A DNA stretch of 28,467 bases, from positions 1 to 28,467 of the IMG/VR virus record IMGVR_UViG_3300044301_003257, one strand, 5' to 3'. Origin of the DNA: a virus. A model generated the notes under the pieces. The model worked only from the letters and a program-made list of their open reading frames with translations, made no database searches and had not been told where the DNA came from. A program made the translations under genes and the position numbers. This document shows positions 10,288 through 25,416 of this stretch, piece after piece (positions within the stretch are counted from its first letter, which is position 1; the number at the start of each line of letters is the position of its first letter).

Positions 10288-11136
10288 GTGTGGTATAAAA
10301 GTGAAGGTGTGAAAAACTATTTCAAATTTTTAAACGAAAGACATTTAATTTATTTACGAAAAACTAGAGGAGAAGAATATCCTTGGACAACTGATCCTAT
10401 TCTACAAAAATATAAGTTTACTAACGTGTTCCGTGAAAACGATAGAACTACAGTGTGGTTCAGAGAAAATGTGCGTGAAAACATGCGTGATGAAATGGAT
10501 GTAGCGTTGGCGACTATTATGTTTAGATGGTTTAATTTAATAGAAACAGGAAAGATTTTATTAGAACACGATTTATACAGAGATTGGGACAGTGACTACT
10601 GTGTTGAAATTTTAAGAGATCAACCACAATGGGTTACAGGAGCGTACATTATAAAGACACCGAATGGCATGAACAAACTAGAAGGTGTGTGTTGGTGTAT
10701 CGACCAGATAGCTAACGACAACAATAAGTTTATAGATTCAATGCACGAAGCGAAAGGTTCACTAAAAGCGTTGTGGGACGTGCTTATGCCTTACCCATAC
10801 ATGGGTCCATTTATGGCTTATGAAGTAGTTACCGATTGGCGACATACATTTTTAGGCGACGAAGCTACAGACATTATGACATGGGCAAATCCTGGACCAG
10901 GAGCAAAACGTGGTTTAAACAGAATACATGAACGACCTTTAAATAAACAAATAAAAAGTGACATAAATATAGAGGAAATGCAAGTATTGCTTGAGTTAAG
11001 TCAAGAGTGGTTACATGGACAAGTACCTAGTTTAGAAATGCGTGATATCGAACACACCCTTTGCGAGTTCGATAAGTATGAGCGTGTAAGAAATGGCGAA
11101 GGAAAACCAAGGAGTATATATAAATGGAAGGGATAG
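10288..11136 (+). CDS. DNA base hypermodification protein (aGPT-pyrophosphorylase / 5-hmdU DNA kinase helical-domain family)
   Basis: A 282-aa all-helical protein, GTG start with AGAGGAGG just upstream. It shows PWTTDPILQKYKFTNVFREND (32-52), RWFN (80-83), a helix-hairpin-helix-like MGPFMAYEVVTD (172-183) and GPGAKRGL (203-210). I associate these with the glycosylase-fold family called alpha-glutamyl/putrescinyl thymine pyrophosphorylase, also described as the helical domain of 5-hydroxymethyl-dU DNA kinase. No P-loop is present, so any kinase partner must be elsewhere. In known systems such proteins act on DNA carrying 5-hydroxymethyluracil and help install bulky groups. Neighbours (FkbM methyltransferase, glycosyltransferase, thymidylate-synthase relative) support this. 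The exact reaction cannot be told. Confidence 0.82.
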   Translation: MWYKSEGVKNYFKFLNERHLIYLRKTRGEEYPWTTDPILQKYKFTNVFRENDRTTVWFRENVRENMRDEMDVALATIMFRWFNLIETGKILLEHDLYRDWDSDYCVEILRDQPQWVTGAYIIKTPNGMNKLEGVCWCIDQIANDNNKFIDSMHEAKGSLKALWDVLMPYPYMGPFMAYEVVTDWRHTFLGDEATDIMTWANPGPGAKRGLNRIHERPLNKQIKSDINIEEMQVLLELSQEWLHGQVPSLEMRDIEHTLCEFDKYERVRNGEGKPRSIYKWKG

Positions 11137-11768
11137 AATATTTAGAAAAATTTGGGGGATGGGTGCGTCCTGGCACACTAGACGAATATGTGTTTAAAGA
11201 GATACGTCCTTCGTACAACATGTTGGACATACAGGAAGGCGACACAGTTTTAGATATCGGAGCAAACATTGGTGCGTTTAGTTTATACGCAACACAAGAG
11301 GGTGCTGACAAAGTGTATTCTTACGAACCAGATGAAGATAATTTCCAACTGTTAAATGTAAATAGTCCTAACTCTGTAAACACACGTTGTGCTGTTGTTG
11401 GTGATGATAGTGATTATGTTTATCTGTATGTAAACTCTAAGAAAAACAAAGGTTTACATATGACTCGTGAAGTTAGAGGAAGAGACGCAGTAAAAGTGTT
11501 GGCGTTAAAGTTTGACGACATCATAAACGATAGAAAACCTAACAAAATAAAAATAGATGTAGAAGGAGCAGAGTATGGGTTTATGCCTTATGTGTTCCCA
11601 GATTATGTTGAAAAACTTGTGATGGAAATACATTTTCAATATGATTCTACATGGCGTGCTAAAGGTAAAGAACTTAACCAAAGCATGTTGGATCAAGGGT
11701 TTAAACCTATGCGAGAGTATAGGGACACTGGTAATAATTGGCACACTATAGGAGCATACACAAGATGA
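11124..11768 (+). CDS. FkbM-family SAM-dependent methyltransferase
   Basis: A 214-aa Rossmann methyltransferase. SAM motif I is VLDIGANIGAF (42-52), motif II acidic loop YEPD (67-70), and the FkbM hallmark KIDVEGAE is at 143-150. AAGGAG precedes ATG 11124, which overlaps the previous gene by 13 bases. FkbM enzymes usually O-methylate small hydroxyls on sugars or polyketides. In this operon a plausible target is a sugar or hydroxyl on a hypermodified base, but a role in modifying host surface glycans cannot be excluded. Its stop overlaps the next start (ATGA). Confidence 0.88.
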   Translation: MEGIEYLEKFGGWVRPGTLDEYVFKEIRPSYNMLDIQEGDTVLDIGANIGAFSLYATQEGADKVYSYEPDEDNFQLLNVNSPNSVNTRCAVVGDDSDYVYLYVNSKKNKGLHMTREVRGRDAVKVLALKFDDIINDRKPNKIKIDVEGAEYGFMPYVFPDYVEKLVMEIHFQYDSTWRAKGKELNQSMLDQGFKPMREYRDTGNNWHTIGAYTR

Positions 11769-12070
11769 ATAATGATTTTACAAAATTTGAAAACATGCGA
11801 GTAATCGCACAAAACGATGTTGATAAATTACAGATAGCAGAAAAATCTTATGGCACTTCTTGGCGACAAAGAGGTGGTGTAGGTGCATTTATGATGCTGG
11901 CTCGTAAATGGGATCGTATCGAAAATCAAGTTAAAAAAGTTGCTTACGATATATTCGAAGCACACGAAAAAGATTCACGAGCAGAAGGAATTTTAGACGA
12001 TATTCAAGATCTAAGAAGATATTTGCTTTTAGTTGAAGAACATGTAACCAAAAGAAAGGAGGAACTATGA
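11765..12070 (+). CDS. Nmad1/DUF1599-like small helical protein (tentative)
   Basis: A 101-aa protein starting MNNDFTKFEN; ATG 11765 is chosen for its AGGAG at 11750-11754 and ATGA overlap with the methyltransferase. The core K.YGTSWRQRGGVGAFMMLARKWDRIEN and C-terminal GILDDIQDLRRYLLLVEEH recall DUF1599, also named nucleotide modification associated domain 1, a helical family with a YG.SW motif found next to phage base-modification genes. The assignment is by eye and not certain; MazG-like all-alpha pyrophosphohydrolases are a possible alternative. Its last codons overlap the glycosyltransferase start. Confidence 0.65.
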   Translation: MNNDFTKFENMRVIAQNDVDKLQIAEKSYGTSWRQRGGVGAFMMLARKWDRIENQVKKVAYDIFEAHEKDSRAEGILDDIQDLRRYLLLVEEHVTKRKEEL

Positions 12071-13404
12071 AAATATTGGTAACAATGTATGGGATTAACA
12101 GTCCTGGTGGTATAATAAACCACAATGAAAATTTAATTTCTGGCTTTAAACTACAAGGTCATCACGTTGACTTTATAGAACTTGTGTGGCGAGACAGCAT
12201 TAAAGAAAAAACCACAAAGGACAACAGTGGTTATGAGCATAGAGGATCTGGTATTCCTGTTCATCAAGGAAAAGGTTGGCTGTTTCCAAAAAATAGTCGA
12301 TTTGCGTATAAGGGTAACAGTAATCTTAAAAGGTGGAAAGAGTACGTTGCTGAATACGATTTAATTGTGTGGCAGATACCTGTTCCTACAAAACAAAGAG
12401 ATAACGAAGGCAACACGGATTGGTTAGCTTTGTACGACTTACCTGATAGGATTAAACAGGTAGCTGTTATTCACGATGGTAATATGCAAAAAAGCTATCC
12501 ATGGATTAGCCAAATAGCACATCATTTGAATGGTTTAGCTTGTGTGCATCCTTGTGCTTACCATGGTGCTGCAGTGTTAGACGTACCTAGAGCATTAATA
12601 CTTAACCCACAAGACATAACAACCATTGATGACAAACCTAATTGGAACAGCAGAAAAGATGGTTTTATCTCTATGCAAACATTTAAAGGTTGGAAGCATG
12701 TTGATGATTTAGTCAGAGCCATCCCACATTTACCAGAACATTTTCAGAAACGCATGGCTGGTGGTGGGATAGAGCACAATTACATGACCTCTAAAGATAA
12801 GTGTAAAGAAAACTATTTTGTTAGTCCTGAGAGAGATCCAGATATTGGTTATCAACATCATGGTAAAAAAATATGGGACGTAGCTTTAGATTATGGTATG
12901 GAATGGTTTGGTTATCTAACAGAGGATAAAGTTAGGGAACATCTAAGACAGGTTAAGTGCGTAATAGACCCATCTTGGTCAGTTGCATACGCAAAAATAG
13001 GTGACCATTTTAATCGAGTGATCGTCGATGGGATAATAGAAGGAGCAATACCCATTGCGAGGAACTATGGAATCTCTACCAATGCCGAAGGTGAGGGAGA
13101 AGTGTTTAAACCTTCAGAAAATTATATGATGGTGCCTCATGATGCTACTCCTCAAGAGTTCGCTTCTGTTATTATAGAAACTGTAAACCTACATCAAGAT
13201 TGGGCAGAGGATATACAGGAAAACAACAGAAAACTCGCACAGCATTTCGAAAGAGAACGAGTTGCTCTTCAATATCTGTCATTAGCTAACAACACCCCAA
13301 CAGGGTTTTACAACAAACTCGAAACAGGGGAAGTGTCAGATAAAATTGTTTCTAAAACAAAAGAAATTATGACAGACTTTTTTAGACTGTCCACTGAAAT
13401 ATAA
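12067..13404 (+). CDS. GT-B glycosyltransferase, candidate DNA-base glycosyltransferase
   Basis: A 445-aa protein. The N-terminal domain begins MKILVTMYGINSPGGIINHNENLISG, the Rossmann start with a glycine-rich loop typical of GT4-like enzymes. The middle reads KVFISMQTFKGWKHVDDLVRAIP-like (about 200-220), and the C-terminal donor domain has FGYLTEDKVREHLRQVKCVIDPS and DGIIEGAIPIARNYG (about 282-335), where GT-B enzymes bind the sugar nucleotide. AAAGGAGG lies just before ATG 12067. In this operon it most likely transfers a sugar to a hydroxymethylated base, analogous in logic to T4 glucosyltransferases, though a surface-glycan role is possible. Confidence 0.85.
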   Translation: MKILVTMYGINSPGGIINHNENLISGFKLQGHHVDFIELVWRDSIKEKTTKDNSGYEHRGSGIPVHQGKGWLFPKNSRFAYKGNSNLKRWKEYVAEYDLIVWQIPVPTKQRDNEGNTDWLALYDLPDRIKQVAVIHDGNMQKSYPWISQIAHHLNGLACVHPCAYHGAAVLDVPRALILNPQDITTIDDKPNWNSRKDGFISMQTFKGWKHVDDLVRAIPHLPEHFQKRMAGGGIEHNYMTSKDKCKENYFVSPERDPDIGYQHHGKKIWDVALDYGMEWFGYLTEDKVREHLRQVKCVIDPSWSVAYAKIGDHFNRVIVDGIIEGAIPIARNYGISTNAEGEGEVFKPSENYMMVPHDATPQEFASVIIETVNLHQDWAEDIQENNRKLAQHFERERVALQYLSLANNTPTGFYNKLETGEVSDKIVSKTKEIMTDFFRLSTEI

Positions 13405-17507: not shown

Positions 17508-17783
17508 ATGCAAGGAATAGACGAGCAGTCGGCTAAAAACTTTCTAGACAGAAACGAAACCATTTACAATCTGTATAAAAATGGAGCAACTATGGAACAG
17601 ATAGGTGCAAAATTTGGTGTTTCAAAACAGCGTGTACATCAGATAATTCGAAGATGTAAAATCGGAGAAGGACATTATTATAATGCGCACAAACTGGAAA
17701 CAGATAAAAAAGAAACAGACCCAGCTAACTATAGTGCTTGGTTAAAAGAAAAAGGTGTGAAAACTATCAAAAGAAACTTTTGA
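17508..17783 (+). CDS. Helix-turn-helix protein, sigma-70 region 4-like
   Basis: A 91-aa protein. Residues about 19-48 (IYNLYKNGATMEQIGAKFGVSKQRVHQIIRR) form a clear HTH of the sigma-70 region 4 / resolvase type, the helix that contacts -35 DNA. The C-terminal tail is basic. GGAG lies eight bases before ATG, directly after the polymerase stop. A transcription regulator, perhaps for a gene switch, is likely; there is no region 2, so it is not a full sigma factor. Its last codons overlap the start of the nuclease gene. Confidence 0.78.
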   Translation: MQGIDEQSAKNFLDRNETIYNLYKNGATMEQIGAKFGVSKQRVHQIIRRCKIGEGHYYNAHKLETDKKETDPANYSAWLKEKGVKTIKRNF

Positions 17784-18178
17784 AAGAAAACGCATTTTGG
17801 GGTTTAGTCAGCAAAAATCTAAAAAATATACACATCCAGCGAATCGAGACTGGGGGTACTGGGCGTGGAATCCCAGATTTTAACGCATGCGACGATGGTG
17901 TTGAGTATTGGGTAGAATTAAAGGTTGTAAACTCTGGTAAAAAGATAGGACTTCGACCTGAGCAAATAGGGTGGTTGGTAAAACGCTCTATGCATGGTGG
18001 TCGTTGTTTCGTTTTAGTTAGGACTCCTGATGCACAAATATATTTATATAATGGTGCTGATGCGAGAGAAGTAGCTGACGAAGGACTACGCTTAGAACCA
18101 GAGTTGGCACTTAAAAAACCTTATGATTGGGATTTATTAAAAAAGTCCTTTACTTTATTGCACAATAAGATAGAATGA
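17780..18178 (+). CDS. VRR-NUC / Holliday-junction-resolvase-like PD-(D/E)XK nuclease
   Basis: A nuclease of about 132 aa. GRGIPDFNACDDGVEYWVELKVV gives the catalytic D and ExK, followed by a downstream Q (RPEQIGW) and RCFVLVR strand, the VRR-NUC pattern. It would cut branched or single-stranded replication intermediates. The frame is open from TTG 17738, but TTG 17780, which overlaps the previous stop as TTGA, gives a start LKENAFWGLV that fits family members; the start codon is uncertain. The last 30 bases of the gene contain a promoter (18149-18176) for the following gene. Confidence 0.8.
   Translation: MKENAFWGLVSKNLKNIHIQRIETGGTGRGIPDFNACDDGVEYWVELKVVNSGKKIGLRPEQIGWLVKRSMHGGRCFVLVRTPDAQIYLYNGADAREVADEGLRLEPELALKKPYDWDLLKKSFTLLHNKIE
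18149..18176 (+). promoter_or_regulatory. Promoter embedded in the 3' end of the nuclease gene
   Basis: AAAAGTCC, TTTACT (18149-18154), 16 bases, TAGAAT (18171-18176). It lies wholly inside coding sequence (residues LKKSFTLLHNKIE) and would start transcription near 18183, 29 bases before ATG 18212. Confidence 0.6.
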
Positions 18179-18512: not shown

Positions 18513-18541
18513 AGGACTTTGTTATGATTTAACAAAGTCCT
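18513..18541 (+). terminator. Hairpin fused to a promoter
   Basis: AGGACTTTGTTA and TAACAAAGTCCT form a perfect 12-bp stem with a five-base loop (TGATT), followed by TTTACTTTAC. The 3' arm supplies the AAAGTCC block of the next promoter, so one element may end one transcript and start another. Confidence 0.6.
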
Positions 18542-18568
18542 TTACTTTACTGTAGAGTGATATATGAT
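18541..18568 (+). promoter_or_regulatory. Promoter before the zinc-ribbon gene
   Basis: TTTACT (18541-18546), 16 bases, TATGAT (18563-18568). Expected start near 18575, then AAGAAAGGAGAAAAAA before ATG 18596. Confidence 0.75.
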
Positions 18569-18595
18569 AACTTTAAAAAGAAAGGAGAAAAAATA

Positions 18596-18730: not shown

Positions 18731-19236
18731 TGGAAGATTTTATTTTTAAACAAACAAGTAATACTTTTTTTGAATCAGATTACAACGATTATGGATTGCG
18801 ATGCGAAATTACTGTTCTTGGTGAACGTAGATATAGGGTTGTACTTATAGCTTACGACTGCGAAGTAATCAGGTGCTTTTTTTGTAGAACAACCATAGAG
18901 TGTAAAGCTGAAGTATATGAGGATGCTAAACACTTAAAAGAAATAAATAAGATTACTTGTGGTAATTTTGAAGTAGATGATTACGAATTACATCATTCAT
19001 GGTGTTATGCAGATGCTTCAGACATAGAGCGACTTAAAGAGATTTGTTCTAAGTATGATGACAATAAACATAAATGCGAATTAGAAAGTGCCTATGAATA
19101 TGTAGAGGAATACAAAACATTAGATAAAAAAATTCGTGGGGAAAAGTGGCAAGCAGATTTTAAAAAAGTGCTATCTTCTAAAAACATAAAAGAAATGAAA
19201 GCACAAGCTAAAAAAATGCTGTCTGAACAAAATTAG
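18730..19236 (+). CDS. Hypothetical protein
   Basis: A 168-aa protein starting MEDFIFKQTSN; ATG 18730 is chosen over an upstream in-frame codon because of the TAATG coupling with the zinc-ribbon gene. The N-terminal half is beta-rich with six cysteines (CFFCRTTIEC among them); the C-terminal 45 residues are Lys-rich helix (KWQADFKKVLSSKNIKEMKA). No known family. It is followed immediately by the promoter at 19240. Confidence 0.65.
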   Translation: MEDFIFKQTSNTFFESDYNDYGLRCEITVLGERRYRVVLIAYDCEVIRCFFCRTTIECKAEVYEDAKHLKEINKITCGNFEVDDYELHHSWCYADASDIERLKEICSKYDDNKHKCELESAYEYVEEYKTLDKKIRGEKWQADFKKVLSSKNIKEMKAQAKKMLSEQN

Positions 19237-19239
19237 TCC

Positions 19240-19267
19240 TTTACTTTACTGTAGAGTGCGATATGAT
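19240..19267 (+). promoter_or_regulatory. Promoter of the structured leader
   Basis: TAGTCC, TTTACT (19240-19245), 16 bases, TATGAT (19262-19267). Expected start near 19274, giving an unusually long (about 165-base) leader before ATG 19441. Confidence 0.72.
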
Positions 19268-19310
19268 AAACTGTATGAATTTAAGAAAAAGATAGGCAAT
19301 ACATGAATCC

Positions 19311-19425
19311 GATAGGTGCGTGCTCTTGGGTGCCGATGTTCTAGGTAAATGTGTGTGACGCCCATTGTGCTGCCAAATATCTTTCATAACGACTGGGCTA
19401 ATTTACCACCAAGAGCAACTTTTTA
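19311..19425 (+). ncRNA. Candidate structured RNA leader or small RNA
   Basis: Nested pairings span the only long leader in the accessory region: TGCTCTTGG (19321-19329) with CCAAGAGCA (19409-19417); inside it GGTAAAT (19444-style block at 19344-19350) with ATTTACC (19401-19407); inside that GCCCA (19360-19364) with TGGGC (19394-19398). The outer stem is followed by ACTTTTT (19418-19424), so the fold could end in termination and release a small RNA of about 150 bases, or act as an attenuator or riboswitch just before AAGAAAGGAG of the next gene. I do not recognise it as a known riboswitch class or tRNA. Confidence 0.5.
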
Positions 19426-19440
19426 AGAAAGGAGAAAAAT

Positions 19441-19698
19441 ATGATATTCGACAAAGTTTTAGAAGAGTTTAAAAAAATCCATCCACATTATTCCAGAACA
19501 CCGAGTGAAAAGTTTTCATCCGCACGGATGGGTGGCTGGTTACTTAGGGATGCTGATAACATGTATATTGGTTTTTTAAGTAAGCGTGGTGGTTGCGAGG
19601 TTGTTGATCTTGTAGAAACTACCCCAGAAAACAAACCTCAGATTCGTGGGGTAAACGACGAGAAATACAAAGAATTCAAACAGAGGTATAAAAAATAA
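19441..19698 (+). CDS. Small hypothetical protein behind the RNA leader
   Basis: An 85-aa basic protein starting MIFDKVLEEFKKIHPHYSR, with an AAGAAAGGAGAAAAAT site right after the RNA element. MGGWLLRDADNMYIGFLSKRGG suggests a small alpha/beta fold. No known family. If the leader is regulatory, this gene is its target. The stop overlaps the next small ORF (TAATG). Confidence 0.65.
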   Translation: MIFDKVLEEFKKIHPHYSRTPSEKFSSARMGGWLLRDADNMYIGFLSKRGGCEVVDLVETTPENKPQIRGVNDEKYKEFKQRYKK

Positions 19699-20954: not shown

Positions 20955-21145
20955 TGGAAGAGTTTAAGTACAGTAAAAAACAAACATACAAAACAAATTT
21001 AACACGTTGGCGAATACTTAACGCAAAAGAACGTAATGCGTTTAATCAACCAGAGTTATCGGAAAAAGAAAGTAAAGAAAGGTTTGACGAATTGTATGGT
21101 GCTAACAAAAAATCTCTTAAAAATTGGGTGTTAGGTAATTCGTAG
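20954..21145 (+). CDS. Small hypothetical protein
   Basis: A 63-aa basic, helical protein starting MEEFKYSKKQTYK; ATG 20954 overlaps the membrane protein stop. It ends tail-to-tail with the oxygenase gene, sharing 15 bases. No recognised family. Confidence 0.55.
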   Translation: MEEFKYSKKQTYKTNLTRWRILNAKERNAFNQPELSEKESKERFDELYGANKKSLKNWVLGNS

Positions 21146-21817
21146 CGATGCTTCTTCTGGAATATCCCCTTTCATCCAATATGTAAGTGAATACCTCTTA
21201 CCTCTTGTTATGTTTAATGCTGTATGTCTGTGTGTTACTCTAGATGGAAACAGTATCGCGTGACCTATAGGTAATGGACCAGCAGAAAATTTCTGTCTTT
21301 CAAAATACACACCACCATCATCAAAATCATCGTTTAATTGCACCGATAAACTTATTTCAGCTAATCCATCATGGTGCCATCCTGGATTTCCAATTTGTCC
21401 ATCCATACTGTGTTTGACCACAAAAGCAGAAGACAGCCAGACTACAGGAAAACTCCACACAGAATTAGTTATGGGTACTATGTGCTTTTCTATGTTTTGT
21501 ATGTGTGCTGTGTTGGCATAAGGTGATAAATCTTTTAAGTCTATTTCTGGTGCTGGGTAAACATCACCAGGACGATGTTTAAATTGACCAATTTTTTCGC
21601 ATACTTCTATTAGTTGAGCACAGTACTCTGGTGTTAAAAAAGGAAAACTTATTATATTGTCTGCTGGCTCCTCGACTAAGTCTAAAACTTTTTTACGAAC
21701 ATCGTCTGTTGGCATAAAAGAATCTTCTGGAACCAGAACATAATCTTCTGTTGCTTTTAATAACTCTGGTGCTATATTGTCTGGTGAATAATTAAAGATC
21801 TTAGATAGATCGACCAT
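21131..21817 (-). CDS. 2-oxoglutarate/Fe(II)-dependent dioxygenase (prolyl-hydroxylase-like)
   Basis: A 228-aa enzyme. The iron ligands are H148 and D150 in WHHDG and H196 in RVTHRHTA; the 2-oxoglutarate-binding Arg is R205 or R208 in TRGKRYSL. The double-stranded beta-helix follows an N-terminal helical part. Such oxygenases are common in marine phages; substrates may be proteins or nucleic acid bases. It is the only leftward gene in the accessory region, with TATAAT six bases before ATG and no Shine-Dalgarno, suggesting a leaderless mRNA. A role in base modification is possible but unsupported beyond the phage's other enzymes. Confidence 0.88.
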   Translation of the reverse strand: MVDLSKIFNYSPDNIAPELLKATEDYVLVPEDSFMPTDDVRKKVLDLVEEPADNIISFPFLTPEYCAQLIEVCEKIGQFKHRPGDVYPAPEIDLKDLSPYANTAHIQNIEKHIVPITNSVWSFPVVWLSSAFVVKHSMDGQIGNPGWHHDGLAEISLSVQLNDDFDDGGVYFERQKFSAGPLPIGHAILFPSRVTHRHTALNITRGKRYSLTYWMKGDIPEEASLRIT

Positions 21818-21823
21818 GATTCT

Positions 21824-21852
21824 ATTATAAAGGTTTAAAAAAAGTTAAAAAA
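21824..21852 (-). promoter_or_regulatory. Leftward promoter of the oxygenase gene, possibly leaderless
   Basis: On the minus strand a consensus TATAAT (21829-21824) lies six bases before ATG 21817, so transcription would start at the ATG. The -35 region is only an A/T tract (TTTTTT at 17 bases). It is back to back with the rightward promoter at 21857. Confidence 0.5.
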
Positions 21853-21856
21853 GTCC

Positions 21857-21884
21857 TTTACTTTATTGTAGAATCATGCATGAT
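21857..21884 (+). promoter_or_regulatory. Promoter before the zinc-binding gene
   Basis: AAAGTTAAAAAAGTCC (possible UP element), TTTACT (21857-21862), 16 bases, CATGAT (21879-21884). It leads to AAGAAAGGAGAAAAAAT and ATG 21918. Confidence 0.72.
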
Positions 21885-21917
21885 AGTGTTATTGTTTTAA
21901 AAGAAAGGAGAAAAAAT

Positions 21918-22244
21918 ATGACAATATTAGAATTTTGCAAACATCCCTTGGTAGAATATGCCGATGCGGAAAGTCCTCGTAAAGAGTCTAGAGAGTTTGA
22001 ATATGTTGAAGGTGAAAGATGTATTCTTTGCAATAAAGGTGTAGATAAACCTAAAATATGGGTTCATCTTTGTAATGGTGGTTCTGAACTTGCCCACGCT
22101 GAAGATAGTGCTACGATTGAGCACTACCATGATGCTGGTAATCTAGGTTGCCACCCTATTGGTCCCGAGTGTAAACGCAAACTTGCGAAAGTTATTCGTG
22201 AGCAAGGTTGTGATCCAAAAAACTACATAACTGTAGAAAACTAA
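21918..22244 (+). CDS. Small zinc-binding hypothetical protein
   Basis: A 108-aa protein; ATG 21918 is chosen for the strong ribosome site in front of it. Cys/His pairs (RCILCNKG, VHLCNGG, EHYHDAG, GCHPIGPECKRKL) look like a zinc-binding fold of the kind seen in small phage proteins. It heads a run of five genes joined by AAGGAG sites or stop-start overlaps. No function known. Confidence 0.65.
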   Translation: MTILEFCKHPLVEYADAESPRKESREFEYVEGERCILCNKGVDKPKIWVHLCNGGSELAHAEDSATIEHYHDAGNLGCHPIGPECKRKLAKVIREQGCDPKNYITVEN

Positions 22245-23798: not shown

Positions 23799-23824
23799 AT
23801 CTTTTTAAAAAGTTAAAAAACTCC

Positions 23825-23853
23825 TTTACTTTTATTCTAGAATAGTGCATCAT
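23825..23853 (+). promoter_or_regulatory. Promoter before the 56-aa gene
   Basis: AAAAAGTTAAAAAACTCC, TTTACT (23825-23830), 17 bases, CATCAT (23848-23853) in GAATAGTGCATCATAAT. AAGAAAGGAG follows before ATG 23886. Confidence 0.7.
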
Positions 23854-23885
23854 AATTGTATTCATTAATAAGAAAGGAGAAAAAA

Positions 23886-24056
23886 ATGAAAGAATATAAA
23901 GTAAAGGTAATAGTGACTGAAATACACTACATAACTGTAGAAGCTAAGAATATAGCAGAAGCTGAGGGTAAAGGAGAATCTTATGGTTTTCATGCACAGG
24001 ATGCTATATCTACAGAAGTAGAAGTAGAATCAGTACAACTTATAGAAAACAAATAG
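23886..24056 (+). CDS. Small hypothetical protein
   Basis: A 56-aa acidic protein; ATG 23886 follows AGAAAGGAGAAAAAA. The strand-strand-helix pattern (EYKVKVIVTEIHYITVEAKNIAEAE) resembles the protein at 20507. It forms a single-gene unit with its own promoter and terminator. Confidence 0.65.
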   Translation: MKEYKVKVIVTEIHYITVEAKNIAEAEGKGESYGFHAQDAISTEVEVESVQLIENK

Positions 24057-24072
24057 TCTTACCTCTTGATAG

Positions 24073-24097
24073 ATGACTCCTTCGGGAGTCATTTTTT
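24073..24097 (+). terminator. Intrinsic terminator with UUCG loop
   Basis: ATGACTCC-TTCG-GGAGTCAT followed by TTTTT. An 8-bp stem with the stable UUCG tetraloop ends the 23886 transcript. Confidence 0.9.
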
Positions 24098-24125
24098 ATG
24101 GGCGAAAAAAAGTTAAAAAAAGTCC

Positions 24126-24154
24126 TTTACTTTTATTGCCGAATAGTCCATCAT
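24126..24154 (+). promoter_or_regulatory. Promoter before the 142-aa gene
   Basis: AAAGTTAAAAAAAGTCC, TTTACT (24126-24131), 17 bases, CATCAT (24149-24154). The leader carries AAAGAAAGGAGAAAAATT before ATG 24190. Confidence 0.72.
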
Positions 24155-24189
24155 TATATTGTTGTTAACTAAAAGAAAGGAGAAAAATT

Positions 24190-24618
24190 ATGAAAACTAA
24201 ACAACAAAAAGCAATAGAGTTATTCTGGTCTTTAGATCGTGATCAAACTTTTATGGCTGGTGACTACAGTATTATTGACTGTGAGCGTGGCTTCGTGGTG
24301 CTTAATGATGAGAAAAAGACTTTTGAAATTTTTGAGTCTATCGAAAAAGCCATGGACTCTGTGCCTGAGGAAGACTTACTTAGCAACCCTTATATTGATG
24401 ACGAGGAGGACTCGTTTAAGGAAGCTGGGTTTACACATTTAATTGACGATAAGGAATTATACTTTGAAGAATTAGATGGACTCAGGGAAGGTGGTTATAA
24501 TGGTGAGTCTTTTAATATGCATGGTGCTCCTAAGTGGCTAGAGGAAAATTACGACCTTAGCACGAAAGAAGCTGAGTTTGTATTTAACCAGTGGAAAGAA
24601 ACTGTGGAGGAAGAGTAA
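24190..24618 (+). CDS. Acidic hypothetical protein
   Basis: A 142-aa, strongly acidic protein (many Asp/Glu, e.g. NPYIDDEEDSFKEAGF and the closing ETVEEE). Charge of this kind occurs in phage DNA-mimic antirestriction proteins, but no signature supports that here. It starts behind a full promoter-RBS cassette and overlaps the next gene (TAATG). Confidence 0.65.
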   Translation: MKTKQQKAIELFWSLDRDQTFMAGDYSIIDCERGFVVLNDEKKTFEIFESIEKAMDSVPEEDLLSNPYIDDEEDSFKEAGFTHLIDDKELYFEELDGLREGGYNGESFNMHGAPKWLEENYDLSTKEAEFVFNQWKETVEEE

Positions 24619-24806: not shown

Positions 24807-24822
24807 CTTTTAGACTCTTAAT

Positions 24823-24850
24823 AAATGGCTCCTTCGGGAGCCATTTTTTT
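24823..24850 (+). terminator. Intrinsic terminator with UUCG loop
   Basis: AAATGGCTCC-TTCG-GGAGCCATTT plus TTTT: a 10-bp stem, the same sequence as the terminator at 25224. Confidence 0.92.
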
Positions 24851-24865
24851 ATTTTAATAAAGTCC

Positions 24866-24894
24866 TTTACTTTTATTGGCGAATAGTCCATCAT
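24866..24894 (+). promoter_or_regulatory. Promoter before the 91-aa gene
   Basis: AAAGTCC, TTTACT (24866-24871), 17 bases, CATCAT (24889-24894) in GAATAGTCCATCATA. The stretch from AGTCC to the -10 is almost identical to the promoter at 24126. Confidence 0.72.
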
Positions 24895-24931
24895 AGCTGT
24901 ATTGTTTATCAATTAAGAAAGGAGAAAAATT

Positions 24932-25207
24932 ATGATAAAATGCGACGACGAAAAACAAACTGCCAAACAGTATGTAAATGGCAGGTTTGAAAGCTATATC
25001 TCTGTCATCCTAGATTGTGTGGGTGCGTTAAGAACCGATGAGGACATTATGAACGATGAATTGTTCGCGGATGCTTTTTACTTTTTCCACACAGACGAGA
25101 ACGATTTAGTAAATATGACACTTAACGAGCGAAAACATGTTATGCGACAGTTAAGCAAGCAGGGTGGTAGGTTGCTAAAAATAGTAGATCCTAAATACAG
25201 AGATTAA
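24932..25207 (+). CDS. Small hypothetical protein
   Basis: A 91-aa acidic protein with AAGAAAGGAGAAAAATT before ATG. It contains VNGRFESYISVILDCVGALRTDED and FFHTDENDLVNMTLNERKHVMRQL. No recognised family. It forms the last promoter-gene-terminator cassette of the accessory region. Confidence 0.65.
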   Translation: MIKCDDEKQTAKQYVNGRFESYISVILDCVGALRTDEDIMNDELFADAFYFFHTDENDLVNMTLNERKHVMRQLSKQGGRLLKIVDPKYRD

Positions 25208-25223
25208 TCTGTTGCCTCTTGAT

Positions 25224-25248
25224 AAATGGCTCCTTCGGGAGCCATTTT
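25224..25248 (+). terminator. Intrinsic terminator with UUCG loop
   Basis: AAATGGCTCC-TTCG-GGAGCCATTT, then T and C. The U-run is short, but the stem is identical to that at 24823. It closes the accessory region. Confidence 0.85.
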
Positions 25249-25416
25249 CGTATTGGGTTATTGGCATATATATGAGGAATGGATTTTTCTTTTTGAGTTA
25301 GTCAAAAACTTCGAAACAGCCAATAGGGTAATAGGGAAGGGATAAAAGACTCTTGTGGAAGGGAATACAGCGTATTGGTATGACCTATTAGAAGGTTATT
25401 GGCACAGGAAGGTAAT

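Follow-up and report, generated by a model that had tools for sequence, protein, structure and literature searches.

A Structured RNA with a Predicted Double Pseudoknot in One Lineage of Marine Phages

Introduction

The window analysed here corresponds to an entire IMG/VR virus contig, 28,467 bases in length. A leader in front of one of its small open reading frames (ORFs) had been singled out in a first-pass annotation, made from the sequence alone, as a set of nested stems ending in ACTTTTT, and had been read as a possible new riboswitch, attenuator or released RNA. Structured RNAs of phages are few and are often ribozymes, guides or host-takeover factors. The locus raises two questions: whether a structured RNA is encoded here, and whether it serves the gene that follows or forms a module of its own.

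Results

Nested Stems in the Window

The features of the locus, with the observations on which each is based, are as follows.

19240–19267, plus strand: promoter-like site TTTACT-16-TATGAT upstream of the RNA, whose −10-like TATGAT ends at 19267 (consensus scan; repeated cassette families D1/D2)
19292–19418, plus strand: RNA element (covariance models R1 and R2, 124–138 bits)
19295–19303, plus strand: helix a 5′ strand, GGCAATACA (paired counterparts in the members)
19315–19319, plus strand: helix b 5′ strand, GGTGC (45/45 cells paired)
19321–19329, plus strand: P1 5′ strand (compensatory changes)
19330–19334, plus strand: helix b 3′ strand, GTGCC (pairing across members)
19344–19350, plus strand: P2 5′ strand, GGTAAAT (invariant in all members)
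19351–19359, plus strand: J2/3 joint, GTGTGTGAC (family consensus GTGnGTGAY)
19360–19364, plus strand: P3 5′ strand (compensatory changes)
19366–19374, plus strand: helix a 3′ strand, TGTGCTGCC (pairs with 19295–19303)
19382–19389, plus strand: TTTCATAA (kept in most members, absent in L104)
19394–19398, plus strand: P3 3′ strand (compensatory changes)
19401–19407, plus strand: P2 3′ strand, ATTTACC (TA before it and a bulged A after it in all members)
19409–19417, plus strand: P1 3′ strand (compensatory changes)
19418–19424, plus strand: ACTTTTT (shared by no homologue)
19425–19434, plus strand: ribosome-binding site (RBS) of the following ORF, AAGAAAGGAG (sequence; end of the repeated cassette)
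19441–19698, plus strand: downstream ORF of 85 aa with its ATG at 19441 (no Pfam match)

The three nested stems of the first-pass annotation are present, and P1 (9 bp), P2 (7 bp) and P3 (5 bp) consist entirely of Watson–Crick pairs in the window copy. None of 1000 dinucleotide shuffles contained nested Watson–Crick stems of at least 9, 7 and 5 bp, and a second nested 9/7/5-bp set is absent from the rest of the plus strand of the contig. The folding energy of the stretch gave no signal (z = +0.85 and +0.10), and the minimum-free-energy fold of the single sequence retained P1 and lost P2, so that the case for structure rests on comparison.

Homologues and Their Distribution

The RNA element is known from 11 records, the window and ten other phage contigs, which hold nine distinct sequences. 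Relatives of the polymerase supplied three close copies (L005, L006 and L009), covariance model R1 picked up a distant copy in the L003 record, and pattern scans filtered with covariance models added L096, L099, L101, L102, L104 and L138. All eleven records score 78–124 bits with model R2, and the R2 scan gives one copy per genome. When the centre of P2 was freed in the search pattern, zero new members were obtained; freeing J2/3 yielded one, L138. Pattern matches in L088, within a radC gene, and in L089, a Comamonadaceae MAG, lack the fold and were set aside as chance. Searches by blastn, with four members as queries against 50,697 phages and one against 72,556 plasmids, gave only chance matches.

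The nearest sequenced relatives of the phage that carries the window RNA are the Pelagibacter phages HTVC023P, HTVC027P and 023Pt_psg01 and phage DSL-LC04, with amino acid identities of about 50–54% in the polymerase and 55–59% in the terminase. These cultured phages have no copy of the RNA in the R2 scan, and it is likewise absent from about 40 contigs whose polymerase is about 50% identical. The RNA occurs in a lineage of marine phages, whose presumed host assignment comes solely from kinship with Pelagibacter phages.

Covariation and the Conserved Core

Covariation in homologues, on which the first-pass annotation had staked its reading, was found, with two-sided (compensatory) changes in 12 of the 21 stem pairs of the nine distinct sequences. 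In these sequences, 97.3% of the stem cells of P1–P3 are paired, as against 28–50% in slid controls; none of 500 shuffles matched the observed pairing, and RNAalifold, unaided, returned the identical 20 pairs. P1 and P3 are freely covarying helices, with compensatory changes in 7/9 and 5/5 pairs, respectively. P2 (GGUAAAU/AUUUACC) is nearly invariant, its 5′ strand being identical in all members; it should be noted that the search patterns included the ends of P2, so that this invariance is partly a selection effect. The J2/3 joint, with the RNA core GUGnGUGA, is also nearly invariant, and it is conserved even among the matches of the pattern that left it free.

By our own count, 27 paired cells are G-U and, in the same count, zero unpaired cells are A-C. 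Since G-U is present and A-C absent, the comparison points to an RNA read from the plus strand as the functional molecule.

Two Further Helices and a Double Pseudoknot

The fold of the first-pass annotation stands as to its three stems and was incomplete, having overlooked two pseudoknot helices. In helix a, positions 19295–19303 pair with the loop behind P3; the window copy has 8 of 9 pairs and one A.C mismatch, and the helix is fully paired, with different sequences, in the eight other distinct members. Its 3′ strand begins 0–2 nt behind P3 across the members (1 nt in the window). The sequence of helix a is wholly different between phage groups, and each strand matches its own partner:

L009 and L005: CACGATATA/TATATCGTG
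L006: CTGTTAAGTC/GACTTAACAG
L096: CTTCAGTA/TACTGAAG
L104: GCACGAC/GTCGTGC
L138: GACGTGG/CTACGTC
L101: GGGTGC/GCACCC
L094: AGGTGC/GCACCT

The summed score of the strands with their own partners is 171, compared with a mean of 72.6 for permuted partners (fraction 1.5e-5).

The two strands of helix b lie on either side of the P1 5′ strand, with the consensus G-S-U-R-M just 5′ of P1 and K-Y-G-N-C just after the P1 5′ strand. Two of its five pairs show two-sided changes (G-C to C-G and C-G to A-U). The resulting strand order, a b c b′ d e a′ (optional hairpin) e′ d′ c′, is that of a double pseudoknot. The optional hairpin behind helix a is found in the distant members L094, L101, L104 (4260–4285) and L138 (2200–2330) and not in the window group.

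A search of Rfam 15 (4227 families, gathering score) gave 0 matches in the window, only chance matches to the element (E 0.5–6) and, for four loci of homologues, no match with E ≤ 1. This is the outcome of the Rfam/Infernal check proposed with the first-pass annotation, and it fits the claim of a new RNA. Covariation, pseudoknots and zero Rfam matches together lend that claim strong support, and comparison makes it practically certain that the window contains a structured RNA of about 125 bases. The family appears to be undescribed, new as a family and not necessarily as a kind of activity.

Certain other readings of the locus were tried and rejected. P2 together with ACCA might be read as tRNA-like, but the ACCA is not kept (ACTG in L104, L138 and L094); no tRNA or tmRNA was found. 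The motif GUGUGAC, which we take to be complementary to helix 44 of 16S rRNA over about 7 nt, is not kept in L094, and the pairing was taken as chance.

Genomic Context

In the window, a cassette promoter is followed by the RNA, the RBS and the 85-aa ORF, and no second promoter is present between RNA and ORF. In L005 and L006, the order is promoter, RNA, a further promoter copy and ORF; in L009, it is promoter, a 61-aa ORF, the RNA beginning at its stop codon, a promoter copy and ORF. A promoter-like cassette directly precedes the RNA in the window and in L005 and L006, and not in the members located behind stop codons. The latter are found right behind the stop codons of unrelated ORFs in L009, L096 (a 66-aa ORF), L094/L101 and L104. 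L104 and L138 both carry the RNA behind one kind of ORF, close to the small-terminase gene, and differ in the gene behind the RNA; in L104, the RNA abuts a start codon, the ATG lying 4 nt behind P1.

In L094/L101, the RNA follows an 85-aa ORF of another family and is itself followed by an intrinsic terminator and then by a separate promoter. The terminator hairpins just after the RNA have energies of −20.4 kcal/mol (z −6.5) in L101 and −18.2 kcal/mol (z −4.6) in L094; the terminator scan missed them, as their stem extends into the T tract. No terminator was found after the RNA in seven of the nine distinct members. With regard to the first-pass suggestion of a released RNA ending at ACTTTTT, this T-run is private to the window copy, and a strong terminator does follow the RNA in two distant homologues; release of the RNA is thus plausible. 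As a separate observation, in L094 (1463–1530, minus strand), the P1 3′ strand ACTGTT may pair alternatively with the terminator 5′ arm GGCAGT, which would make a possible switch in that lineage only.

Overall, the homologues show five unrelated downstream gene contexts, and the 85-aa ORF of the window is present without the RNA in L008, and in the L104 and L138 records it lies apart from the RNA. This variety, together with the ORF occurring elsewhere without the RNA, indicates that the RNA forms an independent module and is not the leader of one gene.

Several other features of the window were recorded. A repeated promoter–RBS cassette (AGTCCTTTACTT...CATGATA...AAGAAAGGAGAAAAAT) precedes many small ORFs, in related contigs too, giving the impression of one phage-type promoter per gene; its copies in the window lie at 18137–18177, 18529–18569, 19228–19268, 21838–21931, 23807–23900, 24108–24201 and 24848–24941. 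Three near-identical terminator hairpins (TGGCTCCTTCGGGAGCCATTTTT; 24063–24101, 24815–24853 and 25216–25254) alternate with these cassettes. A 91-aa protein with a sigma-70 region 4/helix-turn-helix match, encoded at 17508–17783 immediately after the polymerase gene, is a candidate recogniser of the cassette promoters. A 2OG-Fe(II) oxygenase-like gene (21131–21817, match below the curated cut-off) lies on the minus strand, opposite to its neighbours, and an FkbM-type methyltransferase gene and a glycosyltransferase-like gene (11124–11768 and 12067–13404) lie within the replication region.

Discussion

The best overall explanation of these data, to which we would give about an even chance, is a compact phage non-coding RNA of about 125 nt with a double pseudoknot, stand-alone and with a recognised core. 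The comparison shows P1, P2 and P3 stacked as one irregular stem, with the 5′ strand of helix a joined to the loop directly behind P3 and helix b flanking the P1 5′ strand, so that an H-type double pseudoknot holds the invariant P2 and the joint GUGnGUGA at the centre. The RNA would be made as a separate molecule from its own cassette promoter in the window phage and two relatives, whereas other phages would make it as the 3′ portion of an operon transcript. The invariant core would be a putative binding site whose most likely partner is a protein or complex of the host or the phage, with a small ligand as a further possibility. The RNA would then act in trans or within an RNP, and the variable helices would serve as a scaffold. 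For a stand-alone, trans-acting mechanism, we would put the chance somewhat short of even. The stand-alone reading is preferred because the core is fixed while the scaffold varies, three phages have a promoter-like cassette directly before the RNA, the L094/L101 lineage has a terminator behind it, and the neighbouring genes seem to be a matter of indifference. Counting against it are the position of the window RNA in the 5′ UTR of the 85-aa ORF without a second promoter, the start codon abutting the RNA in L104, which suits a cis role there, and the seven of nine distinct members without a following terminator.

A cis-acting riboswitch or attenuator, in which the core would bind a ligand or protein and the state of the P1 region would control termination or translation of the next gene, appears unlikely. 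The compact pseudoknotted fold with invariant joints would suit a switch, as would the promoter–RNA–RBS–ORF order of the window, the ATG close behind P1 in L104 and, in L094/L101, a terminator after the RNA whose GGCAGT could pair alternatively with the P1 3′ strand. However, the downstream genes are unrelated, with no consistent gene or pathway association over the five contexts; in L005, L006 and L009, the gene is separated from the RNA by a second copy of the promoter, and a separate promoter lies behind the terminator in L094/L101. There is also no shared expression platform, the terminator being confined to L094/L101 and the ATG abutting P1 to L104. Given the differing downstream genes, the second promoter in three relatives and the gene that exists without the RNA, the first-pass suggestion of a riboswitch or attenuator for the following gene is not upheld as the general role. 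Alternatively, the RNA might act in cis on RNA polymerase, by processive antitermination of the put or EAR type, or protect the end of the transcript; independence of the following genes would suit such a role, and a precedent is provided by the put RNA of phage HK022 (PMC9378689). The location near promoters in the window, L005 and L006 and directly before strong terminators in L094 and L101 agrees with it as well. We nevertheless consider this role quite improbable, as most members have no coding-strand terminator in the next few hundred bases and the RNA matches the epsC/EAR model of Rfam in neither sequence nor structure.

The strand order found here is unlike that of all small ribozymes compared, no Rfam ribozyme matched the window at E up to 10 or the loci of four homologues at E up to 1, a small ribozyme would rarely have a 7-bp helix that is fully invariant, and a conserved cleavage-site context is not recognisable. 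These points make a new self-cleaving ribozyme that trims phage transcripts decidedly unlikely, even though the double pseudoknot, the invariant core and the freely covarying helices are in its favour, as are the scattered sites behind stop codons, which recall known phage small ribozymes (hammerhead and HDV-like theta; PMC3088659, PMC10879173). It is very improbable indeed that a short peptide, or an element acting as DNA (operator or origin), accounts for the conservation instead of RNA. A frame is open to GGT AAA TGT GTG TGA in most members, and the inverted repeats could fold in single-stranded DNA, but four helices show compensatory changes, with G-U pairs and without A-C. A short conserved peptide is excluded by the in-frame stop in L096, where a start is also missing, by J1/2 indels that break the frame and by zero synonymous changes in the supposed codons.

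Nearest in habitat are the manA and wcaG motifs and the phage glutamine riboswitches. The manA and wcaG motifs are orphan-function RNAs of marine cyanophages, found mostly in marine metagenomes and phages, with a pseudoknot suspected in manA (PMC2864571). Like the window RNA, they are structured RNAs of marine phages; they sit in the 5′ UTRs of metabolic genes, whereas the window RNA differs in strand order and core sequence and has no match to them in Rfam. The glutamine riboswitch (glnA RNA), found in marine phages such as Melnitz and Mosig (PMC9004378), is comparable as a compact RNA with a regulatory role that is carried by phages of streamlined marine bacteria, but the window RNA does not match its model and has no fixed downstream gene.

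In mode of action, the nearest relatives may possibly be the HDV-like theta ribozymes and the put RNA. The put RNA consists of two simple hairpins. Like the epsC/EAR RNA, it acts near promoters and terminators, whatever genes follow, a setting comparable to that of the window RNA. HDV-like ribozymes, including theta, occur in phages (PMC10879173). They share with twister, glmS and the window RNA two interlocked pseudoknots around a conserved core, but the window RNA differs from these double-pseudoknot ribozymes in strand order and matches none of their covariance models.

A further reading, which we regard as rather unlikely, is a new catalytic RNA class or a new kind of phage RNA whose invariant double-pseudoknot core would take hold of a central host machine. 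The RNA is a defined molecule of 125 nt that can be made directly and tested for cleavage and for ligand or protein binding, and its family is present once per genome in relatives of the Pelagibacter phages that dominate the ocean.
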